Origin: Nitrospirota bacterium
Lineage (GTDB): Bacteria; Nitrospirota; Leptospirillia; Leptospirillales; Leptospirillaceae
Assembly (NCBI GenBank): GCA_021840555.1
Contig: JAKBXW010000003.1
Location: 1-64,000, forward strand
Direction of reading: 5' to 3'
DNA length: 64,000 nt
This document shows, in pieces, positions 3,825-27,683 of the stretch. The position numbers were made by a program, and so were the translations under genes. Positions within the stretch are counted from its first letter, which is position 1; every line of letters begins with the position of its first letter. Below the pieces are notes generated by a model. It saw nothing but the letters and a program-made list of their open reading frames with translations, was not told the DNA's origin and searched no databases.

Positions 3825-3878
3825 ATATGGTGGGCGATACAGGTTTCGAACCTGTGACCCCTGCCGTGTGAAGGCAGT
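3825..3878. repeat. Left attachment direct repeat (copy of the 3' part of tRNA-Val)
   Basis: atatggtgggcgatacaggtttcgaacctgtgacccctgccgtgtgaaggcagt identical to 27630-27683. Confidence 0.95.
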
Positions 3879-4008: not shown

Positions 4009-4704
4009 CTATGACAGTCCATATTTTTGGGCCACTTCTTCCGGTATGATTCCTTTCTCTTCCAGAGCAGCACTCAATCTTTCCCATGTCCACCCTGAAT
4101 TTCCATTGACACCAAGAAGAAGATCCAATTCCGCCACTGTCAGGGCTTCATCTTCAATCAGTCTTTGGAAGACTGCTTCGGTGGGATAGATCCAGGTATC
4201 CTTTGATCCAGTTAAATCATTTCTGGAGGTCCATCCAGTTTCTGGATTAGGCCACAAAAATTTTCCTTCCATCAAGGCACATTCTATTAGCACCCGGGCG
4301 GACGGCTGTACTGACGGAACAACCACTTTCAAACCTCGTGTAGGATAGGGATCATCACCCCGGCGGCCCTCATCCCCGACGACAAAGAGATATTTCGGTC
4401 CTTTACCAAATAAAACTCGAAAAACTTCATCCCAATTTTTAAAATCCTCCAGAGTTAAAGAATCAGTCCAACATTCAAGACCCTTCCACCGATGAATACC
4501 AGGAAGAAGTTTCCCGGTCTTGTAGTCAACACCAAGGAATTTCGAAATCTTCTCGATTTTTTCTTCCCCAAGATACCCTCTATTTTTTCCCCCAAGGAAT
4601 CGGCTCAATTGCGCTTGGGAAATATCATTAGCTGTTGCCATTTTTAAAATAGATATCTTCTTGAACTTACTTAAATACAATAACATTCTTCTATCGATAG
4701 CCAT
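4009..4704 (-). CDS. XRE/HTH-type repressor-like protein with C-terminal domain of unknown function
   Basis: N-terminal MATANDISQAQLSRFLGGKNRGYLGEEKIEKISKFLGVD resembles an HTH; divergent to the element operon. Confidence 0.55.
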   Translation of the reverse strand: MAIDRRMLLYLSKFKKISILKMATANDISQAQLSRFLGGKNRGYLGEEKIEKISKFLGVDYKTGKLLPGIHRWKGLECWTDSLTLEDFKNWDEVFRVLFGKGPKYLFVVGDEGRRGDDPYPTRGLKVVVPSVQPSARVLIECALMEGKFLWPNPETGWTSRNDLTGSKDTWIYPTEAVFQRLIEDEALTVAELDLLLGVNGNSGWTWERLSAALEEKGIIPEEVAQKYGLS

Positions 4705-4715
4705 TTAAAACCCCC

Positions 4716-4776
4716 TTGACAAGTCCATCAAGAATGATCATATTAATATTAATAAGCTCGTATTGATCTTAATATG
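4716..4776 (+). promoter_or_regulatory. Promoter and inverted-repeat operator between repressor and element operon
   Basis: TTGACA (4716-4721), 17 bp, CATATT (4739-4744); inverted repeat CATATTAA (4739-4746) / TTAATATG (4769-4776). Confidence 0.5.
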
Positions 4777-4820
4777 AACATACATTTTTCAAGATTCTAA
4801 TTATACAGGGGGTCCCATCA

Positions 4821-5111
4821 ATGGGCAAAAAACTTCTGACGCTTGAAGAGTTTGCAACCGAACTGGCCATGACGCCTGGGTCTCTCCGGAATCTGCTATC
4901 CCGACCCAATGACCGTCTCGATCTCCCTCCGTCTTTTAGGATCGGAAAGAGGAGATTCTTTTCTGCGGAGGCGGTCGAAATCTGGATCGAAAAAAAAATT
5001 ATTGCTGCTCAAGGGAAGATGGCAGAAAACAAAGTATCAACTCCTCCCCGAGGTCCAGGTCGGCCGACAAAACGTCAGGCTCTAGCTAAGGCCCAGCAGG
5101 GGAACACATGA
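4821..5111 (+). CDS. AlpA/excisionase-like HTH DNA-binding protein
   Basis: KKLLTLEEFATELAMTPGSLRNLLSRPNDRLDLPPSFRIGKRRFFSAEAVEIWIEKK, typical AlpA/MerR-like HTH layout. Confidence 0.7.
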   Translation: MGKKLLTLEEFATELAMTPGSLRNLLSRPNDRLDLPPSFRIGKRRFFSAEAVEIWIEKKIIAAQGKMAENKVSTPPRGPGRPTKRQALAKAQQGNT

Positions 5112-5284
5112 GACTCCAGATCGACAATAAGAGCTATCAAGCCGGATACGGGGAGGGAAGATCGGGGGAATCCTCAAAATCGCACGAGGAACTGGTCCGG
5201 GCAGGGCTGGATGATTTGAGCTATTTGTCCGGGTTTATCGAAGGCGAGGCAAAAAGGATTACCGGATCCGAGCCAGAAAAATAA
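5108..5284 (+). CDS. Small hypothetical protein (58 aa), ATGA-overlapped with upstream gene
   Basis: Read by hand: MRLQIDNKSYQAGYGEGRSGESSKSHEELVRAGLDDLSYLSGFIEGEAKRITGSEPEK*; start overlaps previous stop. Confidence 0.6.
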   Translation: MRLQIDNKSYQAGYGEGRSGESSKSHEELVRAGLDDLSYLSGFIEGEAKRITGSEPEK

Positions 5285-5323
5285 AAAGGCCCCTTTTGGG
5301 GAGGGGCCAGAGAGGATCTTGCA

Positions 5324-5434
5324 ATGCACAAGGAAAAAGATACCACAAGAGTATCCCGCAATCAACGGTTTCGGAAAGATCATCCTTGTCCGATTTGCGG
5401 AGGACATGATCAGGCCGGAAAAGGCTCCCGATGA
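5324..5434 (+). CDS. Primase-type zinc-ribbon mini-protein (36 aa)
   Basis: Read by hand: MHKEKDTTRVSRNQRFRKDHPCPICGGHDQAGKGSR*; CPICGGHD matches the N-terminal zinc ribbon of primases; ATGA overlap with the next gene. Confidence 0.55.
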   Translation: MHKEKDTTRVSRNQRFRKDHPCPICGGHDQAGKGSR

Positions 5435-7656
5435 TCGATCATAGCCGCGATCTCGATGCCCTGGATCCTCCGGTCGGACCGGACGGAGGGAGACTTCGGG
5501 AGACGATATTGAGGCTGAGACCGGAAGATCTGGACAGGATCGTTGATTCTTTCCCCCGGGCGCTTGACTCTGATCATGCCAAGATGCTGGCGGGATCTGG
5601 GATCTCTCCGGAGGTGATTGTCGAACGGGGCTATCGGACGATAACCGACAAATCCGTCCTGGAGAGTTTGGGCTTTGAGGCGTGGCAGGCCCGTGTTCCG
5701 GCCCTTCTGGTCCCGATCCGGGATCGGGAGGGGCATGTCGTATCTGTCCAGATCCGGCCCGACCGGCCGCGGCTGAACAAGTCCGGTAAGCCCATCAAGT
5801 ACGATTCCGTTTCCGGGGCGGGGCATCGAATCGATTTCCCCTCCGGGGTGCCCCTTCCGGGTCCGGAACAAGAAATCTGGATTACCGAAGGGGTAAAAAA
5901 GGCTGACTCCCTCGCTAGCCGAGGGATCTATTGTTTGGCTTTGCCTGGCGTCGATACCTGGTCCGGACCGGACGCAATCCAAGACCTCAAGACCACAGTC
6001 GAATGGAAGGGGCGGACAGTTATTATCGCGTTCGATTCTGACTTTTTGACCAACCCACGAGTTGCCAACGCCCGCGAGGCCCTAACCAGATTTTTGGGGG
6101 ACCGGAAGGCAACCGTCCGATATTTGAACCTCCCCAATCTTGCCAGCGGAAAAAAACAAGGTGTGGATGACTTCTTTGCGGAAGGGCAAACACTGGAGGA
6201 TGTTCTCCGACTTGTTAGCGATTGTGCTCCCACAGCGACTCCAGATCCCGTCTCCCAAACATGGACAGGACAACTCGACCGGACCCCCACCGGACGCCTA
6301 ATCGCAAATTCCAGGACTTTGGGATTAATCCTCCGCAATGCTCCAGACATCGGATCCTTGAATTACAACGAGTTCTCGGGGCTGGTCCAGATCGGGAACA
6401 CGGCGGTCGATGATCCGGTTTTGTTTCGTCTTGCCGAGCAGATAGAAAGGATCTACGGAGAGGGGTGTACCATCCCCCTGGCTCGCCTCCGGGAGGCGGT
6501 GGAAGCCGTAGCCCACGAACACCCCGCCCATCCGGTCCGTGATTGGCTCGACTCGCTCGCCTGGGACGGTCTCTCTCGGATTGAGGCGTTGTTCCCGGTC
6601 TACTATGGGACCAAGGACGATGAGTACACGCGAGCAGTTGGCCGGAACTTCCTTATCGGAGCCGTCTCCAGAATTATTAGCCCCGGCTCCCAGGTCGACG
6701 CCATGCCGATTTTGGAGGGTCCCCAAGGGATCCTGAAATCGAGTTCGATCCAGGTCCTTTTTGGTAGGGAATGGACGGCCGAGCTGAAAGCTGATCCGAA
6801 TCACAAAGATTTCGAAGCCTCGCTATTGGGAATATGGGTGCTGGAATTCGCCGAACTTGAATCTCTCGATCGGGCGGGAGTGGGACGGATCAAACTGCAA
6901 TTATCAGTCCGGTCGGACTGGGTGCGGTTGTCGTATCGACGTGACAATCAGCGGTATCCGCGCCAGTGCGTATTTTTTGGGACGACGAATGACCGCGAAT
7001 ATCTCAAGGATGCGACAGGATCCCGCAGGTTCTGGCCGATTCGGTGTGGGCAGATAGACATAGCGGCATTGGCCCGTGATCGGGACCAGCTTTTGGCCGA
7101 AGCTGTGACTCGATTCAAGGCCGGGGAATCGTGGTGGAAAGTTCCTGAGCAAGCGGCCGATGAGCAGGAGGCCCGTTATCGGGCGGATAGCTGGGAAGAG
7201 GTCATTCGACCATTTTTGTCATCGCGATCAGAGACCACGACGACAGAAATCCTTGAGCAATGCTTGGAGATCCAACGGAGCCAGCACTTTCTTGCATCGC
7301 AGATCCGCGTCGGAAATGCTCTGAAACGATGTGGGTGGGAGAGGGTAAAAATCAGGCTCGGGAAGGATCTAGCATGGGTTTATCGCCCTCCTGAGCCTGT
7401 TCCCAAGTCGAAGTTGGGAACAACCGGGAACAACTCGGGAACATCCAGCACTGACGCCATTGTTCCCGGTTGTTCCCGAGGCAATGAGGCCCCACCATCT
7501 CCCACACTTACCAATAACTCTAAAAAACACCTTGGGAACATGGGAACAACTGGGAACAACCCAGTACTGGAGCCATGTTCCCAAGGTGTTCCCAACCCGG
7601 ATATTTCCGGAAGTTCGGACAGGTTAGGAACAGACGATTGGCAGGAGGTGGAGTGA
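5431..7656 (+). CDS. TOPRIM (DUF3854-like) primase fused to VapE/VirE-type helicase (P-loop)
   Basis: EIWITEGVKKADSLASRGIYCLALPGVDTW and VIIAFDSD (TOPRIM-like); EGPQGILKSSSIQVLFG (Walker A), LEFAELESLDR, FFGTTNDREYLKDATGSRRFWPI (VapE family). Confidence 0.85.
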   Translation: MIDHSRDLDALDPPVGPDGGRLRETILRLRPEDLDRIVDSFPRALDSDHAKMLAGSGISPEVIVERGYRTITDKSVLESLGFEAWQARVPALLVPIRDREGHVVSVQIRPDRPRLNKSGKPIKYDSVSGAGHRIDFPSGVPLPGPEQEIWITEGVKKADSLASRGIYCLALPGVDTWSGPDAIQDLKTTVEWKGRTVIIAFDSDFLTNPRVANAREALTRFLGDRKATVRYLNLPNLASGKKQGVDDFFAEGQTLEDVLRLVSDCAPTATPDPVSQTWTGQLDRTPTGRLIANSRTLGLILRNAPDIGSLNYNEFSGLVQIGNTAVDDPVLFRLAEQIERIYGEGCTIPLARLREAVEAVAHEHPAHPVRDWLDSLAWDGLSRIEALFPVYYGTKDDEYTRAVGRNFLIGAVSRIISPGSQVDAMPILEGPQGILKSSSIQVLFGREWTAELKADPNHKDFEASLLGIWVLEFAELESLDRAGVGRIKLQLSVRSDWVRLSYRRDNQRYPRQCVFFGTTNDREYLKDATGSRRFWPIRCGQIDIAALARDRDQLLAEAVTRFKAGESWWKVPEQAADEQEARYRADSWEEVIRPFLSSRSETTTTEILEQCLEIQRSQHFLASQIRVGNALKRCGWERVKIRLGKDLAWVYRPPEPVPKSKLGTTGNNSGTSSTDAIVPGCSRGNEAPPSPTLTNNSKKHLGNMGTTGNNPVLEPCSQGVPNPDISGSSDRLGTDDWQEVE
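7398..7594. repeat. Iteron-like array: 11 copies of GGGAACA/TGTTCCC in two inverted modules
   Basis: GGGAAC cores (+) at 7416, 7426, 7437, 7534, 7542, 7552; GTTCCC cores (-) at 7399, 7462, 7472, 7577, 7588; within the 3' end of the primase CDS. Confidence 0.85.
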
Positions 7657-8105
7657 TGGAGGTCATTGCGCTTGTCCAACTCCGTGTAAAAAGCACCGGG
7701 GCCGAATATCTCCCGGGAGAACGAGTGGACGCCGCCCCGGAAAAACTCAGGGAGTGGGCGGAAAGAGGTCTGGTCCGGGTTGTGAAGCAGGAAGCTCCCC
7801 TTCCCGTCGTCGTGGCCTCCGATGGTCGGGTGTTGGCCTGGACCAACGACCCTCCCCATATTCGGGTCTACGCCTGGGTGCTCCAGACCCTGAGATTTAT
7901 CCCGGTGGACGCTCAGACTTCTAAAATCCTCAAGATCCCTTCCGGAGAAATGGATGCGACCCGTCTCCGAAAACTGGCGAGGGACCTCCGGATGACTGAC
8001 CAGGAGCTCCAGGCAGCTTTGTCTCAACTTGTAAGAGAGAAGGATCTAGAATTCCGGACGGATCGAGGCCGGAGGATCTACTTTCTAGCTCCGTTGCGAT
8101 ATTAA
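7656..8105 (+). CDS. Hypothetical protein; C-terminal part winged-helix-like
   Basis: ORF abutting the primase stop; MEVIALVQLRVKSTGAEYLPG...; LRKLARDLRMTDQELQAALSQLVREKDLEFRTDRGRRIYFLAP resembles a small wHTH. Confidence 0.55.
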   Translation: MEVIALVQLRVKSTGAEYLPGERVDAAPEKLREWAERGLVRVVKQEAPLPVVVASDGRVLAWTNDPPHIRVYAWVLQTLRFIPVDAQTSKILKIPSGEMDATRLRKLARDLRMTDQELQAALSQLVREKDLEFRTDRGRRIYFLAPLRY

Positions 8106-8170
8106 TAACGGTAACACGTAATCACCATCGGGTTTTCCTGACCACTAACCGATCTGGACGTTAGAGGAGA

Positions 8171-8386
8171 TTGATTATAACTACGCTATCTCTTTCGGTT
8201 CGGGAACGTCTCGATCCGGAAGAAGAGATCTTCGGTCCAATGGGAGCGTTTCTCACCCAGGCGGATTGGCGAGCAGGAAAAAAATTCCCTCGTCTGGAGG
8301 AGAGAATCCGAAAGGCTCTCGAAGAAATCGAAAGGGATTACCTCCCGTTCCCGGAATATGCGATAGAGCCGGAACCGGAATTGTGA
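8171..8386 (+). CDS. Hypothetical short protein
   Basis: 71-aa ORF in the same orientation as neighbours; no recognised domain. Confidence 0.35.
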   Translation: MIITTLSLSVRERLDPEEEIFGPMGAFLTQADWRAGKKFPRLEERIRKALEEIERDYLPFPEYAIEPEPEL

Positions 8387-8397
8387 TTCCGAAATCG

Positions 8398-8525
8398 GGA
8401 GGGGTCCAAGGGGTAACCCCCTGGCAGGATGCGGACCGCGAGTAAGGCCGAAGGCCGTCGAGCGATTCCGTCGCACCACGGCGAAAGACAGCGAAGCTGT
8501 CGTAAGCGTGGTGCCGTCCTGTAGG
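8398..8525. other. Candidate oriT region with two strong hairpins
   Basis: CCAAGGGG-TAA-CCCCCTGG (8406-8424); nested hairpin CACCACG...GACAGC-GAA-GCTGTC...CGTGGTG (8474-8513); intergenic, directly upstream of the mobilization genes. Confidence 0.5.
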
Positions 8526-8586
8526 AAGGAGAGCAGACATAAGTAGACCATCAACGGACAGCAGGGAAGCACAGAAAGGACAGGCA

Positions 8587-9015
8587 ATGAAGACTCAACG
8601 GACATTCGATATCCAAGAAACAGCGGAGAAGGCAAGGAATGCACTGGACAAGTTACAGGCGCAACAAAAGCCCGGAGAACGGACCGGCAAAGGGAGCAAA
8701 ACAGACGTAATCAAGGCGGTTAAACAAGAGCTCAAGGACATGCTTCAAAAGGGATATACCAGCCAGCAAATCGCCGATGCTTTCCGGTCAGATGTTTTTC
8801 AGATTCTTCCGAAAACGATCACGGAGATTACCGGCCGCCCGAAAAGAACCAACCAAAAACCAAAAAGGGTACAGCCCCCTGAACCGGAAGGGCAGTCTGT
8901 TCATCCTGCCCCAACAAGCGCACCCCAGAACAAAGGGGCCGACAAAACAGGAAACGAGCAGAAAAACACGGCTTCAGGCTCGTTCAAAATCCAACCCGAC
9001 TCGGAGGACTTATGA
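8587..9015 (+). CDS. TraK-like relaxosome accessory protein
   Basis: KTDVIKAVKQELKDMLQKGYTSQQIADAFRSDVFQILPKTITEI resembles the DNA-binding pattern of mobilization accessory proteins; position precedes a TraL-like ATPase. Confidence 0.5.
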   Translation: MKTQRTFDIQETAEKARNALDKLQAQQKPGERTGKGSKTDVIKAVKQELKDMLQKGYTSQQIADAFRSDVFQILPKTITEITGRPKRTNQKPKRVQPPEPEGQSVHPAPTSAPQNKGADKTGNEQKNTASGSFKIQPDSEDL

Positions 9016-9731
9016 ACAAGATCATCATGATTGGCGGGGGAAAAGGCGGCGTAGGAAAATCGATGGTCACAATGGCCATGATCGACGCGCTACTGACGGA
9101 TGGTGAAAACATCATCGTCGTTGAATCCGACGACTCCAACCCCGACATATACAAGGCGGTCAACGAACTGGTCCCGTGTGAAATATGCAACCTCGACGAT
9201 CAGTCCGGATATATCACTCTCGGCGGAATAATCGAACAGGGCAAGAAAGCCTGCATCGTCGTGAACACAGCGGCCCGTGCGACTTCCGGGATCATCGAAC
9301 ACAGCGGGATCCTCTCCGATGTCGCCAAAGAACTTGGCCGGGAACTGATCATGCTCTGGCCAATCAACCGCCAACGGGACTCGCTCGAACTCCTCAAGAC
9401 ATTCCTGGACAAGGCTCAAGGCTATAGTCGGACCTACACGGTGATCAACACCTACTTCGGACCGGAAGAAAAGTTCGCCCGGTATTTCATCCCGCTCACC
9501 GACGCCGAACAGAAAGACGAAAACCGACAGCCAAAACTCCGGGAGCGGGTCACAGGAACGATCATTTTTCCGGAACTGAACGATCTGATCGCCGACAAGC
9601 TGATCGACAACAGGCTGGCGCTCTGGACAGCAGACAAAAGCGGAAAACTCACGCTCGCCGAACGGTCGGCACTACGGCAATTCCGGGAAGCGGCAAAAAA
9701 AGCATTGGAGACGATTTATGGCAAACGTTAA
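9012..9731 (+). CDS. TraL/StbB/MobD-like P-loop ATPase
   Basis: MIGGGKGGVGKSMVTMAMIDALLTDGENIIVVESDDSNPD deviant Walker A (ParA superfamily); sits within the mobilization cluster. Confidence 0.75.
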   Translation: MNKIIMIGGGKGGVGKSMVTMAMIDALLTDGENIIVVESDDSNPDIYKAVNELVPCEICNLDDQSGYITLGGIIEQGKKACIVVNTAARATSGIIEHSGILSDVAKELGRELIMLWPINRQRDSLELLKTFLDKAQGYSRTYTVINTYFGPEEKFARYFIPLTDAEQKDENRQPKLRERVTGTIIFPELNDLIADKLIDNRLALWTADKSGKLTLAERSALRQFREAAKKALETIYGKR

Positions 9732-10347
9732 AGAGGGGATGAAACTCATCGGCGGAATGGAGCCGACACCGGAACAGATCCATCGGATCCAGGCGATCGC
9801 CCATTCCTTCGACATCCCCCAGAATGATGCACTATTCCCGTTTATGGTCGCGTTGGAGACCTACCATGGCATATTCACCCGGCTCCCCAACGAAATCACA
9901 AAAAAGACCACAGCAGCGGCGGACAAAGCTGCTGAGAATGCAGCCTCCCTCGCCAAAAACAAAGTCGAAGTGGCCGTGGCCGAACTGGTTCCGTCGATTT
10001 CCGGTCCGTTGGCTGAGGCGGCAGGGAGGGCCGTGAGACAGGCACAGGTAGGCAAATCCATGTTGACCGTTTGGGGGGCGATGTTGATTATCGGCTTTGT
10101 GTTTACGGTCGGATGGTTTTTCGGTGCCCATGAGCTCACGGCGGCACAATCGGGCAAGTTTGCTTGGTCCCAATTTATGATCGATGCAGGCACAAGAATA
10201 GGGTTGGGGATCGCAAGCCCCTCTCTTATCATGCTGGGGGGTCTGGTCTTCGTTTCTCAAGAAGGAAAGCCCGATATTTGGGGGTGGGCCTCCTTCCTCT
10301 TGGGGTGTGCCTCTTTGTCTGTGTTGATCCTGCTGGCGTTTAAATGA
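9718..10347 (+). CDS. Membrane protein of mobilization cluster (TraM-like position)
   Basis: Two or three C-terminal hydrophobic segments (MLTVWGAMLIIGFVFTVGWFFGA; FLLGCASLSVLILLAF); overlaps the TraL-like gene. Confidence 0.55.
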   Translation: MANVKEGMKLIGGMEPTPEQIHRIQAIAHSFDIPQNDALFPFMVALETYHGIFTRLPNEITKKTTAAADKAAENAASLAKNKVEVAVAELVPSISGPLAEAAGRAVRQAQVGKSMLTVWGAMLIIGFVFTVGWFFGAHELTAAQSGKFAWSQFMIDAGTRIGLGIASPSLIMLGGLVFVSQEGKPDIWGWASFLLGCASLSVLILLAFK

Positions 10348-10359
10348 TGAGGAGGCCCT

Positions 10360-10650
10360 ATGCTTGTGCCCGTGACATTCCGCGTCTCCGAAAAAGACCG
10401 CAAAGATCTGGCAGAACAAGCCTCTGCGGCTGGCCTGTCGGTGTCGGAATACATCCGGCGCCGGGCTCTGGGGCATCCGGTCCTGGCCCGGGCGGATGCG
10501 GCCATGATCCGGGAGCTGAGGCGCCAGGGAGGGCTCATCAAGCATTACGCCCTCTCCGGATCCCTTGCCTCGAAAGAGGCTGTCGAAGCGCTCCGAAGCA
10601 TCATTAAACTCGTGAAGGAGTTTGGCGATGATCTACAAAAAAATCCCTAA
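10360..10650 (+). CDS. MobC/TraJ-like ribbon-helix-helix relaxosome protein
   Basis: VPVTFRVSEKDRKDLAEQASAAGLSVSEYIRRRALG, typical MobC/TraJ RHH start; overlaps relaxase gene. Confidence 0.75.
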   Translation: MLVPVTFRVSEKDRKDLAEQASAAGLSVSEYIRRRALGHPVLARADAAMIRELRRQGGLIKHYALSGSLASKEAVEALRSIIKLVKEFGDDLQKNP

Positions 10651-12370
10651 TCCGAATCAGACGGCCTCGAAGGCGATCCGGGTCGAAAAGCTCGCCAACT
10701 ATATCGTCAGACCGGAGAGAGACGGCGGAACGGAAAAATGCGTCTACTCGGGCACACGGGGATTTCTCACGGACGAGTTTTATTCCCAGAAAGCCGAAAT
10801 GATCGCCCTTTCAGAAGAGGCGATCCGCTCCAGCGATCCCATCGAGCATTACGTCCTCTCCTGGCGGGAGGGAGAACGGCCAACCCCTCAGCATATCGAG
10901 AAGGCCGTGGACATCCTGATGGGCGAGTTCGGGATGAGGGAGAGCGACAAGTTCGGGATGAACGAACACCAGGTCATCTATGGACTGCATCAGGATACAA
11001 ACAATTATCATCTCCATATCATGCTCAACCGGGCGGATCCCCTGACGGGCCGGTCCGTCCGGATCAACAACGGGTTCGACATCAAGGCGTTGCAAAAGAT
11101 CATAGCGCGGATCGAGCACGAGCAGGGTTGGACGCCAGAGGCGCACGCCCGATATTCCATCGTGGATGATAAACCGGTCCTCGTCACTGACAGGGGCAAG
11201 ACGGAAGAACACAAGCCCTCCCGGATCCGGGATGCCGAACGACGGACCGGAGAAAAGTCCGCCCTGGCGATCGCCAAGGAAAGGGTTCCGGCAATCTCCC
11301 GGGAGGCGACGGACTGGCAGAACTTTCACGGGAAACTCGCCGAACAGGGAATGGAATACCGGCTCCGGGGAGCCGGAGCGGTCCTTTGGAGCTTCGAGAC
11401 GCCGGTCAAGCCCTCCGACGTGGACCGGAAGCTCGGCCTGAAAGCTCTGGAAAAACGGTGGGGACCGTTCGAGGCCCCGGCCCCGGGGATCGAAAAGAAA
11501 GCGGCACCCTCTCCGGAACCGGTCAACGATACGGCCAAGGCGTTGGGATTTGGCGACTATGCCAAGGCCCGGCGGATCCACCTGGCCGCCCGCAAGGAGG
11601 CCAAGGCCGAACTGAACAAACGGATTGCGGCCGAAAGGATGGCCTTGTTCGAGCGTCAGAGGGAGGAGAGACAAAAGGCGTTCGCCGGAAGCTGGAAGGG
11701 AAAGGGGGCGGAGCTGAACGCCCTTCGCTCGGTACTCGCCGCTCAACAGGCCGGAGCCCGGGCCGAGATCCAGGACAAAATCACGGACCTCCGGAAAGGA
11801 TTCTCGACGGAATATCCTCCGGGCTTTTTCCCGGACTTCGAGGAGTGGGTCAGGAAAACCCGGGGAAAAGAGGCGGCCGAGCAATACCGATACTCGGGGA
11901 GGACAAGGGAGATCCTGATGGAGATCCGGCCGGCCGAACCGGTCCGGTCAAAGGATCCGGAGCCCCGGGACATCCGGGATTATCTTCCGGAGGTTTTCGG
12001 GCGGGAAGTGCGATACAGCAATACCCAGGGGAAAGCGGCGTTTGTCGATTCCGGCCCGAAGATCAGCGTTCTCGATCAGTCCGATGCCAGCGTCCTTGCC
12101 GCCCTTCAACTGGCCCGTCAGAAATACGGGAAAGACCTCGTTGTCACCGGTCCGGAAGAGTTCCGGTCAACAGTCGTTCGCCTGGCCATCCGGAACAATA
12201 TCGCGCTCGCCAACCCGGAGCTCCAGGAACAGATTCGGAGAGAGAAAGACCGGGTGGCCACAGAACGGGAGCAACAGCGGAAAAAGGACCAGGCCCTTCA
12301 AATCCCCCCCCGATCGGTGGCATCCCGTCCGGAGAAACAAAAGAAACGGGGAAAGGATCTGGGAATCTGA
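10628..12370 (+). CDS. MOBP-type relaxase (TraI/MobA-like) with LPD7-like C-terminal domain
   Basis: YGLHQDTNNYHLHIMLNR (H-x-D-T...H-x-H motif); C-terminal FVDSGPKISVLDQSDASVLAALQLARQKYGKDLVVTGPEEFRSTVVRLAIRNNIALANPELQ matches LPD7. Confidence 0.85.
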   Translation: MIYKKIPNPNQTASKAIRVEKLANYIVRPERDGGTEKCVYSGTRGFLTDEFYSQKAEMIALSEEAIRSSDPIEHYVLSWREGERPTPQHIEKAVDILMGEFGMRESDKFGMNEHQVIYGLHQDTNNYHLHIMLNRADPLTGRSVRINNGFDIKALQKIIARIEHEQGWTPEAHARYSIVDDKPVLVTDRGKTEEHKPSRIRDAERRTGEKSALAIAKERVPAISREATDWQNFHGKLAEQGMEYRLRGAGAVLWSFETPVKPSDVDRKLGLKALEKRWGPFEAPAPGIEKKAAPSPEPVNDTAKALGFGDYAKARRIHLAARKEAKAELNKRIAAERMALFERQREERQKAFAGSWKGKGAELNALRSVLAAQQAGARAEIQDKITDLRKGFSTEYPPGFFPDFEEWVRKTRGKEAAEQYRYSGRTREILMEIRPAEPVRSKDPEPRDIRDYLPEVFGREVRYSNTQGKAAFVDSGPKISVLDQSDASVLAALQLARQKYGKDLVVTGPEEFRSTVVRLAIRNNIALANPELQEQIRREKDRVATEREQQRKKDQALQIPPRSVASRPEKQKKRGKDLGI

Positions 12371-13509: not shown

Positions 13510-14289
13510 TCATCCGGGCGTTGGGGCGGAAGGCGCCGTCTTTCCGTTTTTGTCCCTTTGCCGGGCCCGGATCTTCCGGTAGCTTTCTCCGGTGATCCTG
13601 ATCGTCAGGGCCGGACCCTCCAGACGATCCACGATGGCCTCCAGAAGAACGGGATCTCCAATGACCTCCGGCCAGTGGTCGTAGGGGAGCTGGGTGGTGA
13701 TCAGGACGGACTTTCCGCAGGAACGCTCCTCCAGAAGCTCCCGGAAGTCTTCGGCTTCTTCCGAGGTCCATTTTTTCATGCCAAAGTCATCCATTATTAA
13801 CAGTTGGGGACGGATCAGGGATTCCCGGAATTTGAGAAGCGATCCGGTGATCCGGGCCTGGTGGCGCTGTTCCATCCAGTGGGTCACCGAAAGATAGAGA
13901 ACGGTATAGCCATAGGCGCAGGCCTTGTTCCCGACCGCCTGCGCCAGGTAGGTCTTTCCGACGCCGGTCTGTCCGACCAGAACCAGGGGCCGGCCTTCGG
14001 AGAGCCACGCAAGACTCTGGATCTCGACGATCTCCGTTCGGGTCAGGGAGCGTGGCGCGCTTTTGTCGAGATCCTCGAAGGAGGACGGCTGTTTGATGCG
14101 GGAGCTCTTCATCCGCTTCTGGGTGGCCCGGAGGCGTCGATGGTCCTGTTCGGACTGGAGAAGGGCGTCCAGCACCTCTTCCGGGGTCCATTGCTGCGTT
14201 CGGGCATCCTCCAGGATCTGGTCCAGCCGGGCCAGACTTCCGGACAGCTTCAGTTCGGCCAACAGGGTGCGGGTCTGGGGAAGGCTCAT
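13510..14289 (-). CDS. istB: IstB-like ATP-binding transposition helper protein
   Basis: LVLVGQTGVGKTYLAQAVGNKACAYGYTVLYLSV, LLIMDDFGM; overlaps istA end. Confidence 0.95.
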   Translation of the reverse strand: MSLPQTRTLLAELKLSGSLARLDQILEDARTQQWTPEEVLDALLQSEQDHRRLRATQKRMKSSRIKQPSSFEDLDKSAPRSLTRTEIVEIQSLAWLSEGRPLVLVGQTGVGKTYLAQAVGNKACAYGYTVLYLSVTHWMEQRHQARITGSLLKFRESLIRPQLLIMDDFGMKKWTSEEAEDFRELLEERSCGKSVLITTQLPYDHWPEVIGDPVLLEAIVDRLEGPALTIRITGESYRKIRARQRDKNGKTAPSAPTPG

Positions 14290-15818
14290 CGGATCTCCTG
14301 AAGTTGAAGGGGTGGGAGTGAGTCGTTCGTCTCGGTCTTTCTCAGCATGGGATTGCCCGGTTTCCGGACCACGTCCCGGTCGGGAGACCCAGAGACCTGC
14401 AGGCGCAATTGGTCGAGAAATCGTGTGAAGGCGGCGACGCGGATCGTCTGGAAGCGCCGCATGTGGTCGATCGCCTGGGCGATGTGGGGAACGGCGACCG
14501 CCGCTCCCGTCCGGACGACTTCCTGCCGGGCCGTCCGGATGAGTCCCTGGGCCCGCCGCAGGTGTCCCAGCGCGTCCTCCTGAAACAGATCGTCCAGCAG
14601 GGAGTGAAGCTCCGGAGAGAGGGACTTCGCCTGGGACAGGACGTATTGCGGGATGTTTTCCCGGTAGGCCCGGGAGTTTGGGGGCAGGTGCGCGTTCTCG
14701 AGAATCCGGTGGCCGCCCCGGCTGACATCCCGGGCGTGCAGGGCGACCCGCTCATCGCCTTCGAAGATCTCGACCTGACGGAGCGTGACCTTGACCCGGA
14801 CCTCCTTCTCCCGAAGCCGGAACGGCACGGAGTAGTACGTTTTTTCCAGACAGACCGTGCAGTCCGGATGAACGCGGCACGTTTTCCAGTAGAGCTGTTC
14901 GAAGGGCGCCTCGGGAAGGGGCCGGAGCGCCCCTTTCTCGTCTTTTTCGAACCTCTCCTGCCGGGACACGCCAAAACGGCTGTGGGGGCGGGTATTGATC
15001 CGGTCCACCACACGCCTCAGGGCCTCGTTGATCTCGAGGAGACTTCGAAAGGTGTGCTTTCTGTAGAGAAAGAAGAAATATCGGCAGACAATTTTCACCG
15101 AACCTTCGATCAATGCTTTATCTTTTGGTTTTCGGACCCGGCCAGGGACAATCACCGTGCCGTAATGGAGGGCCAGTTCGAGGTAGCCCGGATTGATGTC
15201 CGGATCGTACAGGTGAGTCCGCTTGATGCCCGTTTTCAAGTTGTCGGGGACGGTCACCCGGGTCGACCCCGAAAAGGCGGCATACATTTTCTGGTGGGCG
15301 AGCCCCCAGTTCTCCTTCTTCTCGTTCCCGGAGGCCCAGGCAAAGATCTTCTGGCTATAGCAGAGAATGCCCAGAAAAAGATGGGCCCGATGCTTTTTTC
15401 CGGACTCGTCCACCCACCGGACCTTTTTTCCCGCCCAGTCGACCTCGGTGTGCCCTCCCGGAACGAAATCCCGAAGGGTGACGCTGCCCTTCAGCAGGGA
15501 GGGGTAGGTGCGGTTGAGGTACTTCCAGAAATTGACGTATCCCGTTTTTCCTTCGGCCTGCTCCTCCCAGATCCGCTTGATCTCGTAACCCTTCCGGATG
15601 TCCGAGAGGACGCTCTCCCAGTCGATTCCCTGCGCCCAGTCCGGAGGCAGTTCGGGAGAACTGACACAGAGCGTCGGAGCCTGATCCCCCTGCTTCCGGA
15701 TCTCGCTCACCCGTGTGCGGCGAAGAGAAAGGGCCTTGGCAATGATCCTGTCCGAAAGTCCTTGTTCGATGAGACGTTGCACTTCCCTGATGCGTTCCAC
15801 AGTCAGACCTCGCTTCAT
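14286..15818 (-). CDS. istA: IstA-like DDE transposase
   Basis: HTH at N-terminus; DFVPGGHTEVDWAGKKVRWVDESG (DDE catalytic core), IS21-type C-terminus. Confidence 0.95.
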   Translation of the reverse strand: MKRGLTVERIREVQRLIEQGLSDRIIAKALSLRRTRVSEIRKQGDQAPTLCVSSPELPPDWAQGIDWESVLSDIRKGYEIKRIWEEQAEGKTGYVNFWKYLNRTYPSLLKGSVTLRDFVPGGHTEVDWAGKKVRWVDESGKKHRAHLFLGILCYSQKIFAWASGNEKKENWGLAHQKMYAAFSGSTRVTVPDNLKTGIKRTHLYDPDINPGYLELALHYGTVIVPGRVRKPKDKALIEGSVKIVCRYFFFLYRKHTFRSLLEINEALRRVVDRINTRPHSRFGVSRQERFEKDEKGALRPLPEAPFEQLYWKTCRVHPDCTVCLEKTYYSVPFRLREKEVRVKVTLRQVEIFEGDERVALHARDVSRGGHRILENAHLPPNSRAYRENIPQYVLSQAKSLSPELHSLLDDLFQEDALGHLRRAQGLIRTARQEVVRTGAAVAVPHIAQAIDHMRRFQTIRVAAFTRFLDQLRLQVSGSPDRDVVRKPGNPMLRKTETNDSLPPLQLQEIR

Positions 15819-15900
15819 GATGGTCCCTCCCAAAGGGTTGAGTTCGTTGAGAGGGACTACTGTAAATGAGCGACGCTCCGAAGTGGATCCCGATCAGGAA

Positions 15901-16035
15901 ATCGGGTGGCTCCCGTTCAAGAAATCGGGTGGCTCCCGTTCAGGAAATCGGGTGGCTCCCGTCCAGGAAATCGGGTGGCTCCCGTCCAGGAAATCGGGTG
16001 GCTCCCGTCCAGGAAATCGGGTGGCTCCCGTTCGA
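15901..16035. repeat. Six tandem 23-bp repeats at IS21 right end (putative transposase-binding sites)
   Basis: atcgggtggctcccg starts at 15901, 15924, 15947, 15970, 15993 and 16016, exact 23-bp period. Confidence 0.93.
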
Positions 16036-16099
16036 GTAAATTTTGCACGCTTTCAGCAGAGGCTCAAGCTATAAAAGTCGCCGATGGACTTTCCCGTCC

Positions 16100-17026
16100 T
16101 CATTTTCTGAGCAGAACTTCCTTCCCAAAAAAAATCCAGAATCCGGCCAAGGTCAGCAATCCTCCTGTCACCTGAACCCAGGAAAGAAAGTGGCCCAAAA
16201 AGAGGAACGCGCCCGCCGCCGTAACGAGAGGCTGGCCGCTGGTCCAAAGGCTGGCCCGGGTGGGTCCGATGGAGGAAATGGCAAAATTCCAGAGGAAATA
16301 AGCCAGAAAAAGAGCCAAGAAAACCGAATACAGGAGGGAAAAAATGATGATTGGTGTCCGGTCGGCCGTTGGAAGCACTATCCAGCCCGGATGGAGGCAA
16401 AGAAGGATAATTCCTCCCAGAAGAATGGGGAGGAACGTGACCTGAACCGTGGAAACCCTTGTGAGAAGAAAGCGGGAAAGTACCGTCGAAATTGTTAAAA
16501 GGATCAATGATAGAAATGCCAGAAAGAGACCCGTTGACCTCTTTTGGGTTGCCAAGTGAACCATCGTATGAGGAATTCCTCCATCAACGACCAAGAAAAT
16601 GCCGATACAAACCAGACCCATCGCCCCCCACTGGAAGAGGGAAAAGGATTCGTGCCCTTTCAAATGGCTATATAGAGCAACGGTGATCGGTCTTAGAGAA
16701 AGAATCAGAACGAGGGGAACGGGGTCAAGAATGGAAGCGGCCAGAAGAAAGGTCCAATTGTAGCCAACGATTTCGACAAAAGACAGAAGGAGCAGTCCCC
16801 CCCAATCCATCCGAGAAATCCCTCGCCAGAAGGGAAAGAAAAGACACATCAGAAAAACCACCCCCGAAGCCCACCCGAAACGGACAAGGAGGTAGCGTTC
16901 GGGGTTGATCAGTCTGAGCGGTTGATAGAGAACAACATAGTGAAAGCCCCAAAAGAGTACAACCAACCAAACGGCTAGGGTTCCCTGGCGAATTTTTGTT
17001 GTCCCCGTAGCGTACAGCCACGGCAT
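16100..17026 (-). CDS. DMT superfamily (EamA-type) transporter
   Basis: About 10 hydrophobic segments; LWTSGQPLVTAAGAFLFLGHFLSWVQVTGGLLTLAGFWIFF typical EamA C-terminus. Confidence 0.85.
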   Translation of the reverse strand: MPWLYATGTTKIRQGTLAVWLVVLFWGFHYVVLYQPLRLINPERYLLVRFGWASGVVFLMCLFFPFWRGISRMDWGGLLLLSFVEIVGYNWTFLLAASILDPVPLVLILSLRPITVALYSHLKGHESFSLFQWGAMGLVCIGIFLVVDGGIPHTMVHLATQKRSTGLFLAFLSLILLTISTVLSRFLLTRVSTVQVTFLPILLGGIILLCLHPGWIVLPTADRTPIIIFSLLYSVFLALFLAYFLWNFAISSIGPTRASLWTSGQPLVTAAGAFLFLGHFLSWVQVTGGLLTLAGFWIFFGKEVLLRK

Positions 17027-17089
17027 ATTTCAGCTCCCATTCATACCAGTTTGAACTTTAACAATCGTGGCGTCTTACTGACCAGATCG

Positions 17090-17581
17090 CTAGTTTGAGT
17101 TCCTGCCGAGTCTGTTTTCTTGAGACTTGATCTGCCAGTCTACGATGACCTGTACCTCGACCCCGCGCTTTACGGAAGAAGTCACTGTGCAATAGTTCTC
17201 GAATACCTCTTCACACCTCTTCATTCTGGGATGACTTTCTGCGAGGAGTGGAGAGATAGTGACTTCCACTCGGTCGATACGCGGGAGTCCCTCGGTATTT
17301 GGCTTGACAACAACAACCGCTTCGGTCTCGCATCCCAGAACATCGATGTGGGAATGCTTTAGTGCCTCCAAGAGTGATGCCGAGAGGCAGTGACCCAGTG
17401 CGGAGCCAAGAAGCGCAGGCGTTGGAGGTCCCGCATTATCACCCACCGGGTCGGGCTCATCCGACAGATAAGGCTTGCCGTGCATTTGACCGTCCTCACT
17501 TGCCTGGGACAAGAACTGATAATTCTTCTGATGTGTCATTTTGACTTTGAAGCGTCGTTCGTCTTGACCGCGCATGTTCAT
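17090..17581 (-). CDS. OsmC/Ohr-family protein
   Basis: TPALLGSALGHCLSASLLEALKHSHIDVLGCETEAVVVV...RMKRCEEVFENYCTVTSSVKRGVEVQVIVD. Confidence 0.8.
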   Translation of the reverse strand: MNMRGQDERRFKVKMTHQKNYQFLSQASEDGQMHGKPYLSDEPDPVGDNAGPPTPALLGSALGHCLSASLLEALKHSHIDVLGCETEAVVVVKPNTEGLPRIDRVEVTISPLLAESHPRMKRCEEVFENYCTVTSSVKRGVEVQVIVDWQIKSQENRLGRNSN

Positions 17582-17649
17582 GACCTGTCCTCCTTCGATT
17601 TAATCCTTTGATCAGTTATTACTGAATCTTCCAGATTTTTCTTTAAAAC

Positions 17650-17840
17650 TCAGGAAAAGCCTATTTAATAGGAGGAGCATCGGCAGTTCCACCACAAGCC
17701 CAAAGATATGACTAAAATATACCAGCGGTTATCCTGGAAGTACCGCTACGGCAACTCCTACCACCGCCGCTTCGGAATTTCTCGCGGGTGGTGGTAAACC
17801 CTCGTGGCCGTGTCTTCATAGCCGAGTTTAGCAGTGAAGA
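17650..17840 (-). pseudogene. Decayed arsenite/bile-acid:sodium-symporter-type permease (ACR3-related) C-terminal remnant
   Basis: Hand-translated across a frameshift and a stop: LGYEDTAT... / PARNSEAAVVGVAVAVLPG*PLVYFSHIFGLVVELPMLLLLNRLFL, matching the C-terminus of arsenic-resistance BASS/ACR3 permeases. Confidence 0.6.
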
Positions 17841-17903
17841 AAGCCGAGACAATCGGAGCAACACATCGATCCATTTTTGAATGGAATTATTGGTGCCTCT
17901 TCT

Positions 17904-19034
17904 TCACCGCTGAAGGATGCCGCTCCCGAAGTAATACCAGAGAGAAAAGTTCGGAGTCGTAGCCAGATATTCGTTGTTTCCCCATGCGGGAAGAAGAACA
18001 CCCACCGAAAGGGCAAGTTTTGGTGTGATGTTTACCTCGAAAGTTGGCTGCACCGCAATCAGGTTGAAACTTCTGGGGGTGGTATTGACCGGCAGTCCAT
18101 CGGCCGAAAACGGAAGCTCCGAAAGGCCCACCATTTCCAGGATGAATCCCAGACCGTGCTTTTCGTTGACCACATCTTCAACGGCCATCTTATATTGGAC
18201 CAGATCCCCAAACTGGGCAAAGATTTTGGGATCGGCCGCAGTGAGCGATTCCATGCCGGGAAATCCGTAGGTGTAATAAAGCCCGCCGTAGAAACGGAGC
18301 GGACGAATGTTCTTTCGAAGAAGAAATGTCGTGGTAATGGATGGGCTTCCAAAATGGGTGGCGGGGAGAACCGAAATGGGAGGAAGCCCTCCCTTTGGAA
18401 CGGGCGTCCCAAGCCAGGAAGTGGTCGGGAGCGTCAAAAAGAGAAACGTCGCGAAGGACGGACGGGCCGAGTTCGGGTCCTGGATAATCCACCGGTGCTT
18501 GATTCCAAGAGTGAAATCGTTCAGTCCCCATCCGTTTATCGATGATCCTCCGATCGATGAATCCGTTCCGATGAGAGAAGGGAGAATCGCAAGTTCCGTA
18601 TTGGATCCGAGGCCAAAATACATGGCTTCCAGGGCGAGCATCTGGGTTTCATAGAATCCCGGCGGAAGTCCCGTGATTCCTCCGCTGTTGTTGTATTGGG
18701 CCTGGGTGAATCGGCTGTAAAAAAAGAACCGGGCATTGAAAACGCCCTCGGGAAGAGTATCCGCATAGGAGACCATGTTCGGTCCCGCCGTCAGGGGATT
18801 CCAGGAGTGTTTGTAGGCGGAGAGGGCGTCGGGACCGTTTAATGAAAGCGGGGTCGTGTCAGTAGAATCTGATATTTGGGAAGAGACGGGAGGGGGAGAG
18901 GAAGGGCTTTTGGGGAGAGGAATCGCTGGCTGAGTGGGTGTTCCCGGCGGGTCGGCCCAAGCGTCTGTGAACAGGAAGAAAACGGTCAGGATTGGGAGAA
19001 AAAAAGCGATTTTAACCACAATAGTTCCTTTCAT
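17904..19034 (-). CDS. Outer-membrane/porin-like exported protein
   Basis: Signal peptide MKGTIVVKIAFFLPILTVFFLFTDAWA; glycine/aromatic-rich beta-type repeats; C-terminal aromatic-rich strand. Confidence 0.55.
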   Translation of the reverse strand: MKGTIVVKIAFFLPILTVFFLFTDAWADPPGTPTQPAIPLPKSPSSPPPVSSQISDSTDTTPLSLNGPDALSAYKHSWNPLTAGPNMVSYADTLPEGVFNARFFFYSRFTQAQYNNSGGITGLPPGFYETQMLALEAMYFGLGSNTELAILPSLIGTDSSIGGSSINGWGLNDFTLGIKHRWIIQDPNSARPSFATFLFLTLPTTSWLGTPVPKGGLPPISVLPATHFGSPSITTTFLLRKNIRPLRFYGGLYYTYGFPGMESLTAADPKIFAQFGDLVQYKMAVEDVVNEKHGLGFILEMVGLSELPFSADGLPVNTTPRSFNLIAVQPTFEVNITPKLALSVGVLLPAWGNNEYLATTPNFSLWYYFGSGILQR

Positions 19035-19445
19035 TCGGGTAGTGTCCGGATTTTTCCCGGGATGGGTTTCCTCGGTGCCCAGAGCGACCCATAGTCCGGA
19101 GAGGATCAAGAGGACAGTGGTCACCCAAAAGATCACCGTCAACTTTCTGTTTTCACACCGGAAAAGGACGCCCAAAAGGCCCTCGAGAGAATACCCCGTG
19201 TTCCGCCAGTATTCAGTAGGCGCTCTGTGTCTTTCCGCATCATGCCGGGGGGAGATATCCGCGACGGCGGGCAAGAAGATCGGATGATAAGGGGGGAGAC
19301 CTCATGTCCGGTTCGTCGGGATTTTAGGCCTGCAAAGAACAAAAGCCTCTCTTCAAACTTGGGTGGCGATTTCGAGGAGACGAACTCGATAACGGGCACT
19401 GCCGACCCACTCAACTAATGCCGCCGACAATTCCGGGCTTAGCGA

Positions 19446-20528
19446 CTATCCTCCAGTCTCGATTTTGAAAGTGTTTCCGGGAAGGAGCCGGTTCAAAATC
19501 TTATTGAGACGCGGCTTCAAAGGGGCGAATGGAAGCGGAGCAAAGCCGGTCTTCACTGTGTACTGGGGATACTGGCCCTTGGTGAGCGCCCAGATGATCA
19601 TATTCTTGACTTCCATCATGGTCGAATGGGGGAGGTCGGTGCTCACCATCCAGAACTCGAAGTTGGCATCGGGATAAACATCCTTTCCATGAAGGTTCCA
19701 GACAATGGTGCGGTTGAAGTCGTCCGGAAAGGAGGGGTCGTGAAGGGCCGCCACGCCAGCATTATTGATCGTCTTGACTGAGCCGACCACATAGTAGCCG
19801 TCGCGGTTTTTTAAGGCCATGGAACTCAGATGATATTCGTTGATCCAGCCAAGCCCCGCATACCCGATGGCGCCGGGAGTCGTCAGGACGGCAGCGACGA
19901 CGGCATCGGATCCGTTGTAGCCAGAACCGACCGGCCAGGAGGGGGAAAGATCACGACTGATGTTCTCGTACCATTCCTTCGATGTCTGGGATAGATAGTC
20001 GGTAAAGACGAAGGTGGTTCCCGAGGCGTCGGCACGGTGAATGACTTCGATCCTCTGGTGGGGGAACTTGACGCCCGGATTGATCGCCCGGATGGCCTTG
20101 TCATTCCAGAACCGGATCTTGCCCATGAAGATGCGGGCCAAGGTCGGACCGTCCATTTTGATAATCTGGGACTTTTTGATCCCGGGGATGTTGTAGATCA
20201 CCTGGCTGTCGTCGAAGGCTACCGGGATCGAGACGAGGTTCCCATAACGCTTCCCGAGCCCCTTGGTCAGATAGGAGTCGGAAGCCCCGATGGTGATGTT
20301 GCCGTTGGCGGCATTGGAGATTCCAAATCCCGATCCGGTCGACGCCACGGAGACATGCACCCCCGGATGGCTCTTCATGTAGGCGTCGGCCCACACCTGT
20401 TCGAGGGGAAAGAGCATGGTGGAACCGGAGATGGCGAGATCGGTGGCCAGGGCCTTTCCGACTCCCGAAAGAACGGAGACGACCGCCAGGACCGCTACCA
20501 GTCCTGCAGAGCGTTTGAAGAATTTCAT
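19446..20528 (-). CDS. pstS: PstS-like phosphate-binding periplasmic protein
   Basis: LAISGSTMLFPLEQVWADAYMKSHPGVHVSVASTGSGFGISNAANG..., HRADASGTTFVFTDYLS; signal peptide. Confidence 0.88.
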   Translation of the reverse strand: MKFFKRSAGLVAVLAVVSVLSGVGKALATDLAISGSTMLFPLEQVWADAYMKSHPGVHVSVASTGSGFGISNAANGNITIGASDSYLTKGLGKRYGNLVSIPVAFDDSQVIYNIPGIKKSQIIKMDGPTLARIFMGKIRFWNDKAIRAINPGVKFPHQRIEVIHRADASGTTFVFTDYLSQTSKEWYENISRDLSPSWPVGSGYNGSDAVVAAVLTTPGAIGYAGLGWINEYHLSSMALKNRDGYYVVGSVKTINNAGVAALHDPSFPDDFNRTIVWNLHGKDVYPDANFEFWMVSTDLPHSTMMEVKNMIIWALTKGQYPQYTVKTGFAPLPFAPLKPRLNKILNRLLPGNTFKIETGG

Positions 20529-20562
20529 GATTTTCTCCTTGTAAAGTAGATTGACCCTATCA

Positions 20563-21849: not shown

Positions 21850-21850
21850 G

Positions 21851-22324
21851 TCAGTCCTCTCTTAGCAGCGGGTTTTCCATTTCTTTCAGATGGCTCAGGA
21901 GGTCGGTCCGGGAAATGACGCCGACCACTTTTTCCGCTTCCAGCACGGGGAGAGACGTCAAGCGATGATCTATCATCAGCCGTGCGGCCACGGAGAGATG
22001 CATGTCCGGTTCGACGCTGTGCACTTCCTTGGTCATCACCTCTGCGGCCGTCCGCCCCTCGGCCTTGCCCCGATGGGAACCCTGGGGACCGAGGAAGGAA
22101 ACCCAGAAATTCTCCTTCCAGACCGATTCGCGGGGTTCAAGCCGTTCGTCCGCTCCGCGGTGGATCAAGTCTTCCGCCGTCACAACGCCGAGCAACCGGT
22201 TCTCGCCGTCAACCACCGGAACGCCGTTGATGTGATGACTCAGCAGAAGGCTCGCGATGTCCTCAACCGGTGTTTCAGGTTGAACGGTCACCGGATCGGG
22301 AGTCATAAAATTTCGAATTAACAT
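21851..22324 (-). CDS. CBS-domain pair protein
   Basis: [53 protein letters not shown] and second CBS repeat. Confidence 0.9.
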
Positions 22325-22334
22325 GGTCGATCTC

Positions 22335-24098: not shown

Positions 24099-24148
24099 GA
24101 TTTTCTCCTGACCATATTCATGGATTCCATCGGGAAGCCAAAGACATC

Positions 24149-24520: not shown

Positions 24521-24595
24521 TTCAATTCTCCAATTATTATTGAATCATTAAACACGAGGAAAACACCAGTCTTCCCCAGTTAAGGACCCCTGGAA

Positions 24596-25455: not shown

Positions 25456-25461
25456 GGCTTT

Positions 25462-25508
25462 AGAATACAACACTATTAGAATTATTGCAACGACTATCAC
25501 TTTGATAG
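25462..25508 (-). promoter_or_regulatory. ars promoter and inverted-repeat operator
   Basis: On minus strand TTGCAA (25485-25490), 17 bp, TATTCT (25462-25467); inverted repeat CTATCA-CTT-TGATAG (25494-25508). Confidence 0.55.
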
Positions 25509-26531: not shown

Positions 26532-27509
26532 TCACTTCAACATCTCCGCCAGGTCCTCGGCTTTCAGGTGAGTATAGCGTTTCAGCATCTGCAATGTCTT
26601 GTGGCCGGTGATGGCCGCCACCTGCATGGGATTCAGGCCCTTCTCGAAAAAACGGCTGGTTGCCTCATGCCTCAGATCGTGGAAGGTTAGATCTGAGATT
26701 TTCGCCCGTTTGCAAGCCCTCTCGAATGCCCGAGTCATCGTGTGGGGGTCGGTCATGCCCCATATGGATCCATCCAATCGTCGAGGAAGATCGTTGAGAA
26801 TCCGCAATGCCTCTGTCGTGAGCGGTACCGTCCGGGACTTTCCTGTCTTTGTTTCCGGGATCCGGAGCGTTCTCTTCTTTGCATCCACATGCTCCCATTG
26901 CATCGCCACAATCTCTCCCCGTCTCATGCCCGTTTCCAATGCAAACCGGACGACAGGTCCAAGCATTGGGGAGTCCGTATGTTCCAGAATTTTTTCCAGT
27001 TCCCCTAATTGCAGGCGGCGTTCCCTGGATTCGGGATTCCGGGGTCTCCGGATCTGTGAAACCGGATTGACAAGAGACGCCATCCCCCATTCCTTGATGC
27101 AAATCGTAAACACGTGGGAAATCAGGTTCATTTCCCTGTTCACCGTAGAGGGGGAAACTTCATTCAGACGGCCATCTCTCCATAGGGATAAGTCGGAGGA
27201 ACGGACTCCGGCGAGAGGACGGGCCGAGAGAGGATGGTTTTTCCAGTAACGGATCCGTATGGTCTCGACAGCCGCTCCTTTCTTCAGCGAAGAAATTTCA
27301 CGTTCATAACGATCCAAGGCTTCGGACAACGTGGTATTTTCCGCCTCCGTTCGAGAAACGAAGACACCCCGGGCCATTTCCGACTCGATGACCGCCGCCC
27401 AAGAGTCGGCCTCGGCTTTTACGCTGAAAGTCCTAGACTGAGGCGGGAATCCTTTCCGCCGGATCTGGACTTCCCACTGAAGATCGCCACGCTTTCTGAT
27501 CGTCGCCAT
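26532..27509 (-). CDS. int: Tyrosine recombinase (phage-type integrase) of the element
   Basis: ALETGMRRGEIVAMQWEHVD, LTFHDLRHEATSRFFEKG, MQVAAITGHKTLQMLKRYTHL (R..HxxR..H/Y motifs); adjacent to tRNA att site. Confidence 0.95.
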   Translation of the reverse strand: MATIRKRGDLQWEVQIRRKGFPPQSRTFSVKAEADSWAAVIESEMARGVFVSRTEAENTTLSEALDRYEREISSLKKGAAVETIRIRYWKNHPLSARPLAGVRSSDLSLWRDGRLNEVSPSTVNREMNLISHVFTICIKEWGMASLVNPVSQIRRPRNPESRERRLQLGELEKILEHTDSPMLGPVVRFALETGMRRGEIVAMQWEHVDAKKRTLRIPETKTGKSRTVPLTTEALRILNDLPRRLDGSIWGMTDPHTMTRAFERACKRAKISDLTFHDLRHEATSRFFEKGLNPMQVAAITGHKTLQMLKRYTHLKAEDLAEMLK

Positions 27510-27629: not shown

Positions 27630-27683
27630 ATATGGTGGGCGATACAGGTTTCGAACCTGTGACCCCTGCCGTGTGAAGGCAGT
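27630..27683. repeat. Right attachment direct repeat (3' part of intact tRNA-Val)
   Basis: 54-bp identity with 3825-3878; lies inside the intact tRNA gene. Confidence 0.95.

Follow-up and report, generated by a model that had tools for sequence, protein, structure and literature searches.

The stretch of DNA analysed here, hereafter the window, comprises 64,000 nucleotides of a contig from a Nitrospirota bacterium of the family Leptospirillaceae, and contains an integrated element whose principal features are collected in Table 1. The element measures 23.8 kb between its two att copies, and the exonuclease and IleS genes that flank it lie 24.0 kb apart, as opposed to approximately 220-240 bp at the empty site in at least nine congeneric genomes. 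An integrase and att repeats are thus found at a specific site, a tRNA-Val gene. Both a NikA-like protein and a MobA/VirD2-type relaxase are encoded; the scanned ORFs include no type IV secretion gene, and no oriT was located. The scanned ORFs, some of which had no match, also contained no phage packaging genes (terS, capsid morphogenesis and the like), which not every PICI carries. With genes for a relaxase, a NikA-like accessory protein and a ParA-like ATPase but none found for packaging, the element is an integrative mobilizable element rather than a PICI, its mobility being predicted from these genes. Its cargo (16100-25512) includes ArsB, ArsA, ArsD, a probable ArsC with the low-molecular-weight-phosphatase fold and a probable ArsR of the HTH_20 type, together with a PstS-like binding protein, an EamA transporter, an OsmC-like protein and a CBS-domain protein. 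An IS21-type IstA/IstB pair (13510-16074) separates the mobilization genes from this cargo, and just past it (~15890-16060) are short tandem DNA repeats, translated as VQEIGWLP-like units, that are possibly IS-end repeats.

Table 1. Features of the integrated element and of the candidate origin (window coordinates; a minus sign after an iteron position marks the reverse strand).
Feature	Position	Strand	Basis or remark
att copy, 54-bp direct repeat	3825..3878	.	3' half of tRNA-Val
Cro/C1-type HTH repressor candidate	4009..4704	-	below curated cut-off
Excisionase-like HTH_17 protein	4821..5111	+	weak match
VapE-type primase-helicase, presumed origin-binding initiator, 741 aa	5431..7656	+	PF05272 (6e-69) and DUF3854
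TOPRIM/DUF3854 primase-like domain, residues ~149-260	5875..6210	+	Pfam DUF3854 147-251; weak profile matches to DnaG/T7 primase chains
VapE AAA+ helicase domain, residues ~345-540	6463..7050	+	
C-terminal winged-helix-like domain, residues 587-657, presumed iteron reader	7189..7401	+	AlphaFold; motif/C-terminal domain covariation
Candidate origin module 1, iterons -,+,+,+,-,-	7398..7477	.	7398-, 7416+, 7426+, 7437+, 7461-, 7471-
Predicted-disordered C-terminal tail, residues 658-741, origin-encoded	7402..7653	+	pLDDT ~30
Central gap, presumed melting region	7478..7533	.	function by analogy with PICI origins (PMC6092414)
Candidate origin module 2, iterons +,+,+,-,-	7534..7593	.	7534+, 7542+, 7552+, 7576-, 7587-
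Degenerate twelfth iteron AGGAACA	7626..7632	+	
AGGAGGT Shine-Dalgarno of next gene	7643..7649	+	
149-aa origin-adjacent gene	7656..8105	+	no Pfam or PHROG match
ParA/CbiA-type ATPase	9012..9731	+	
NikA-like mobilization protein	10360..10650	+	
MobA/VirD2-type relaxase	10622..12370	+	
Tyrosine integrase, adjoins intact tRNA	26532..27509	-	Pfam Phage_integrase 3e-29; PHROG integrase 4e-68
att copy	27630..27683	.	within intact tRNA-Val(CAC) 27633-27707 (-)

The gene at the centre of this analysis had been called a VapE-type primase from its letters, and its profile matches bear this out. By sequence, its only match in the PDB was 7pds, PriRep1 with dsDNA (phmmer 2e-40), which was also the best match to its predicted fold (Foldseek 1e-28, target TM 0.71). 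The cognate VapE/D5-type Rep helicase of an SaPI/PICI-type origin is therefore present (PF05272, 7pds). The AlphaFold model, built on an alignment of 29 sequences, gives a pLDDT near 90 as far as residue 657 and of about 30 for residues 658-741; the last folded part is a winged-helix-like domain of helices and a two-stranded wing (pLDDT ~90). Residue 657 corresponds to base 7401 and the repeat array described below begins at 7398. The stop codon overlaps the start of the next gene in the sequence TGATG (7654-7658), and the conserved protein end DDWQEVE is explained by the ribosome-binding site of that gene, which coincides with it. We also considered this acidic end as an SSB-type tip and rejected the idea, since the Shine-Dalgarno sequence accounts for it.

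At the 3' end of vapE, GGGAACA or its complement TGTTCCC occurs 11 times in 196 bp, in two inverted modules. All 11 copies are where the original prediction had placed them, its reverse positions being those of the GTTCCC cores, one base further on than the starts in Table 1. As the shuffled 64-kb window holds 12.0 copies of GGGAACA, about 0.04 would be expected in 196 bp, in agreement with the predicted figure of far below one. Across the whole 2.1-Mb assembly, five pairs of GGGAACA lie 2-6 bp apart, all of them in the array, and the reversed-pattern control gave none. The iterons run -,+++,--,gap,+++,--, so that the predicted order, (+++)(--) twice with two equal 25-bp steps (counted between cores) from the last forward to the first reverse site, is correct. 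The spacing, predicted to be mostly 10-11 bp, measures 10, 11, 10, 8, 10 and 11 bp between neighbouring sites on the same strand, as predicted. Only the A-rich middle was overstated: the gap between the modules exists, but its A+T content is 52% in the window, against 44% for the gene. In three of four relatives the gap reaches 63-71%, and over the GGGAAC copies, in which the two modules are present, it spans 50-71%. The array lies wholly within the coding sequence, from 258 to 63 bp ahead of its end; it is therefore not immediately 3' of the rep gene, but it is directly 3' of the part that encodes the folded protein.

Comparison with close relatives of the window VapE indicates that it is the DNA of this region that is under selection. 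A single-sequence search of genome contigs with the window VapE returned one relative (L006), and the same search of viral contigs returned none, so that a profile search was needed there. The array and its geometry are kept in relatives at 69, 65 and 54% identity, with the shared layout -18+10+11+24-10-[63-76]+8+10+24-11- (signs give the strand, numbers the steps in bp) and nearly constant spacing. Eight recognisable iteron sites remain in L010, and the twelfth, degenerate site of the window is a perfect GGGAACA in L006 and L009. The vapE gene of L009 (G014:C111:19334-21541) carries one in-frame stop codon, yet its origin array is intact. In codons that specify the same residue in the window and in each of three relatives, third bases within the iterons are identical in every case (23/23, 20/20 and 14/14), as opposed to 243/440, 218/418 and 111/262 elsewhere in the gene (55, 52 and 42%; p = 1.9e-6, 3.4e-6 and 1e-5). 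The prediction that DNA constraint dominates in the tail is thus strongly supported. It had also proposed aligning homologous VapE elements, and this shows repeats and geometry persisting while the protein of the tail drifts, the reverse of a conserved tail that has lost its repeats.

How far this arrangement extends was assessed with scans that use no knowledge of genes and take the best inverted heptamer array of each locus, in which degenerate iterons can be missed. Of 25 plasmid and phage loci, 19 had their best array no more than 600 bp from the VapE stop, where 4.0 would be expected for uniform position (P = 3e-11); this limit was fixed after the first plasmid loci had been seen, and was then applied unchanged to the later IMG/VR contigs. 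There, 17 of 22 non-redundant loci with an array of at least five copies had it within 600 bp (2.7 expected, P = 4e-12), and such an array was absent from nine further non-redundant viral loci. Among the phages alone, 8 of 12 loci had the array within the limit, and even a 3.1-kb plasmid with two annotated genes has an array beside vapE. Loci with no clear array near the VapE stop numbered 6 of 25 for plasmids and phages and 14 of 31 for non-redundant viral loci; in plasmid L030 and phage L059 the best array was more than 1 kb from the stop, and in L038, L056, L061 and L063 the gene-blind scan found no array clearly near it. The iteron words vary widely between loci. Among the papers searched, none was found that links VapE to iterons.

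The same slot can hold a different word or a different helicase. In L011, of the same genus and with a VapE 41-43% identical, CCGGAACA replaces GGGAACA in the same geometry (-18+11+10+24-9-[102]+8+24-10-11-18+). L021, also of the same genus, has a similar N-terminal primase-like domain and a DUF927 helicase instead of VapE; its array, of GGGACCA, occupies the same slot but falls within the 5' portion of the following gene. The C-terminal half encoded by that gene matches the window gene at 7656-8105. The DNA element thus holds its position, and it is the ORF running across it that differs. A third congener, L152, with a helicase of another type, has a short cluster of AATGTCGT over the helicase stop that is barely above chance and is not relied on as strong evidence. 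Further afield, five Nostoc plasmids carry arrays within the vapE coding sequence, in a layout near (++++)(--)[130-156](+)(---), with the word GTGGAAC in three, CTAGAACA in L166 and GTGTCAAC in L165; this is an independent repetition of the coding-embedded pattern. When viral contigs were searched for the GGGAACA layout regardless of genes, ten stretches came up; in four of them the array directly follows a primase-helicase gene (L154, L156, L158 and L163, of types Prim-Pol/AAA_25, Toprim/AAA_25, Toprim/DUF927 and VapE). The presence of GGGAACA arrays behind unrelated primase-helicases (AAA_25, DUF927, VapE) suggests either convergence or exchange of the DNA-reading domain.

The C-terminal domain is the presumed reader of the iterons. 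Over 39 loci, similarity of the motif correlates with similarity of the C-terminal domain when the helicase core is controlled for (partial r = 0.26, Mantel p = 0.0005), a modest correlation that rests on automatically chosen heptamers; the reverse partial correlation is 0.05. In SaPI Rep it is likewise the C-terminal domain that reads the downstream iterons (PMC7581432).

We propose, with a probability of about 0.86, that the array is the replication origin of the element and is used by its own VapE, as originally predicted; the comparative data strongly favour this, although the window copy has only a weakly AT-rich middle. The integrase would excise the element at tRNA-Val, after which episomal replication would begin. 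VapE, the product of the gene that holds the array, would recognise the heptamers with its C-terminal winged-helix domain, each inverted module probably taking up one oligomer. It would then open the DNA between the modules and load as a hexameric helicase, presumably as two hexamers, with priming by its own TOPRIM domain or by the host. The origin would fall within the final 84 codons of vapE since the reading frame continues across it as far as the overlapping start codon of the following gene, and the tail would be a disordered by-product of this read-through.

Four other readings of the array have to be weighed against this. It is improbable that the array is an operator or an RNA structure (an attenuator or stability element) regulating the transcript of vapE and the next gene, with VapE autoregulating by binding. 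Iteron initiators often do autoregulate, the two genes overlap, and the RNA of the array forms very stable hairpins (z -8.5, most modules -4.3 to -7.2). However, hairpins follow from the inversion of the sites; those of L010 are weak (z -2.0 and -3.2) though its array positions are kept, the helix register varies among relatives (9- versus 10-bp spacing), and the array lies a long way from where the operon begins and is found in different ORFs in different elements. An equally small chance attaches to a decayed origin, with the element persisting by integration and transfer only. One of the 12 sites is degenerate, the central A+T content is low and an IS21 copy is present downstream of the mobilization genes, but the vapE ORF and the integrase are intact, eleven copies are perfect and the third bases are under purifying constraint. 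It is more unlikely still that the array is a partition centromere (parS). The element does encode a ParA-type ATPase and centromeres typically contain inverted repeat arrays, yet L017, L018 and L020 retain the array with no match to the window ParA, NikA or relaxase in the DNA covered (L018 is cut by the end of its contig), VapE genes of phages and very small plasmids are followed by arrays, and the iteron type tracks the VapE C-terminal domain. As arrays occur without the window ParA and follow VapE, we consider parS unlikely. Finally, the tail is translated in all close relatives with similar last residues, but selection on it as a low-complexity protein feature has a negligible chance of explaining the repeats: the iterons lie on both strands and in different reading frames, giving a protein with no regular repeat, third bases are fixed in the iterons only, the tail is predicted to be disordered and is missing from most VapE relatives, and its conserved end is the ribosome-binding site of the next gene.

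The reading as a VapE-driven origin can be set against several characterised systems. PICI origins consist of two iteron sets around an AT-rich region (PMC6092414). Like the pri-rep-ori systems of SaPIs and PICIs (SaPIbov1, SaPI1, EcCICFT073; PMC6092414, PMC7581432), the window has a VapE-type Rep with a C-terminal DNA-binding domain (presumed here), short iterons at the 3' end of rep in two groups separated by a central gap, and a repressor divergent from xis-like and rep genes. It differs in that the putative origin falls within the coding region of rep and not 3' of it, the primase domain is a fused TOPRIM/DUF3854 domain, and the element carries relaxase, NikA, ParA and arsenic genes, with packaging genes not found in the ORFs scanned. 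The description "SaPI/PICI-like" is hence apt for the working of the origin and for its initiator, the top fold match of which is 7pds, but not for the element as a whole. In SCCmec the Cch2 helicase and its putative origin (PMC7581432) similarly combine an initiator helicase of a mobile element with a C-terminal domain that binds short iterons beside its own gene, as is presumed for the window; there the helicase is of another type and the iterons are three and intergenic. In ori-lambda the origin is embedded in the coding sequence of its own initiator, gene O (PMC6022878). Lambda O, however, is no helicase and depends on P and DnaB, whereas the window element has paired inverted modules and encodes its own helicase. 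SGI1 is, like the window element, integrated and mobilizable with its own replicon, putative in our case (PMC7433901, PMC7826253). Its replication differs in being triggered by an IncC helper plasmid. We know of no VapE or embedded origin in SGI1. That origins may lie within initiator genes was therefore already known from lambda O (PMC6022878); what appears to be new is a coding-embedded version for VapE replicons, its apparent use by a mobilizable element, and evidence, drawn from comparison of sequences, that the pairing of array and VapE is probably widespread with swapped words.

We consider the odds somewhat better than even that a portable origin module is shared by VapE-type and other primase-helicases of mobile elements. 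In this model the geometry is retained, heptamer and C-terminal domain are exchanged as a pair, and the array is read through by any ORF that happens to lie there (the initiator's tail, a linker within it or the head of the next gene); coding-embedded origins would have arisen at least twice, in the elements related to the window and in the Nostoc plasmids. If the module is indeed portable, a layout said to be confined to PICIs would be common among phages, plasmids and integrative elements, and sequence would suffice to predict it. A PICI-like layout is now seen in an element that is mobilizable and carries arsenic resistance, and also, with the word differing each time, next to the VapE genes of plasmids and phages. 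Its recurrence offers a means of predicting, from sequence alone, where many uncharacterised mobile elements have their origin and which iteron goes with it, and supplies data for working out how heptamers are selected by a small winged-helix domain. It also accounts for the low-complexity tails of such VapE proteins as origin read-through. In the window it points to a candidate native replicon for vectors in the host group, which to our knowledge has few genetic tools.

The gene that follows the array may encode a second origin-binding or copy-control protein. Its homologues come after the origin in related elements, whatever type of helicase precedes (L006, 5384-5810; L021, 7133-7882 on the reverse strand; and L152). 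Among the related elements, L017 has its integrase beside tRNA-Gly and a 58-bp repeat with copies 12.4 kb apart, and L020 has its integrase beside tRNA-Val(TAC) and a 39-bp repeat with copies 7.2 kb apart. The latter (4392-11596) is a minimal integrated element of 7.2 kb, comprising an integrase, the VapE-origin unit and few other long ORFs, and apparently lacks the mobilization and partition genes of the window.
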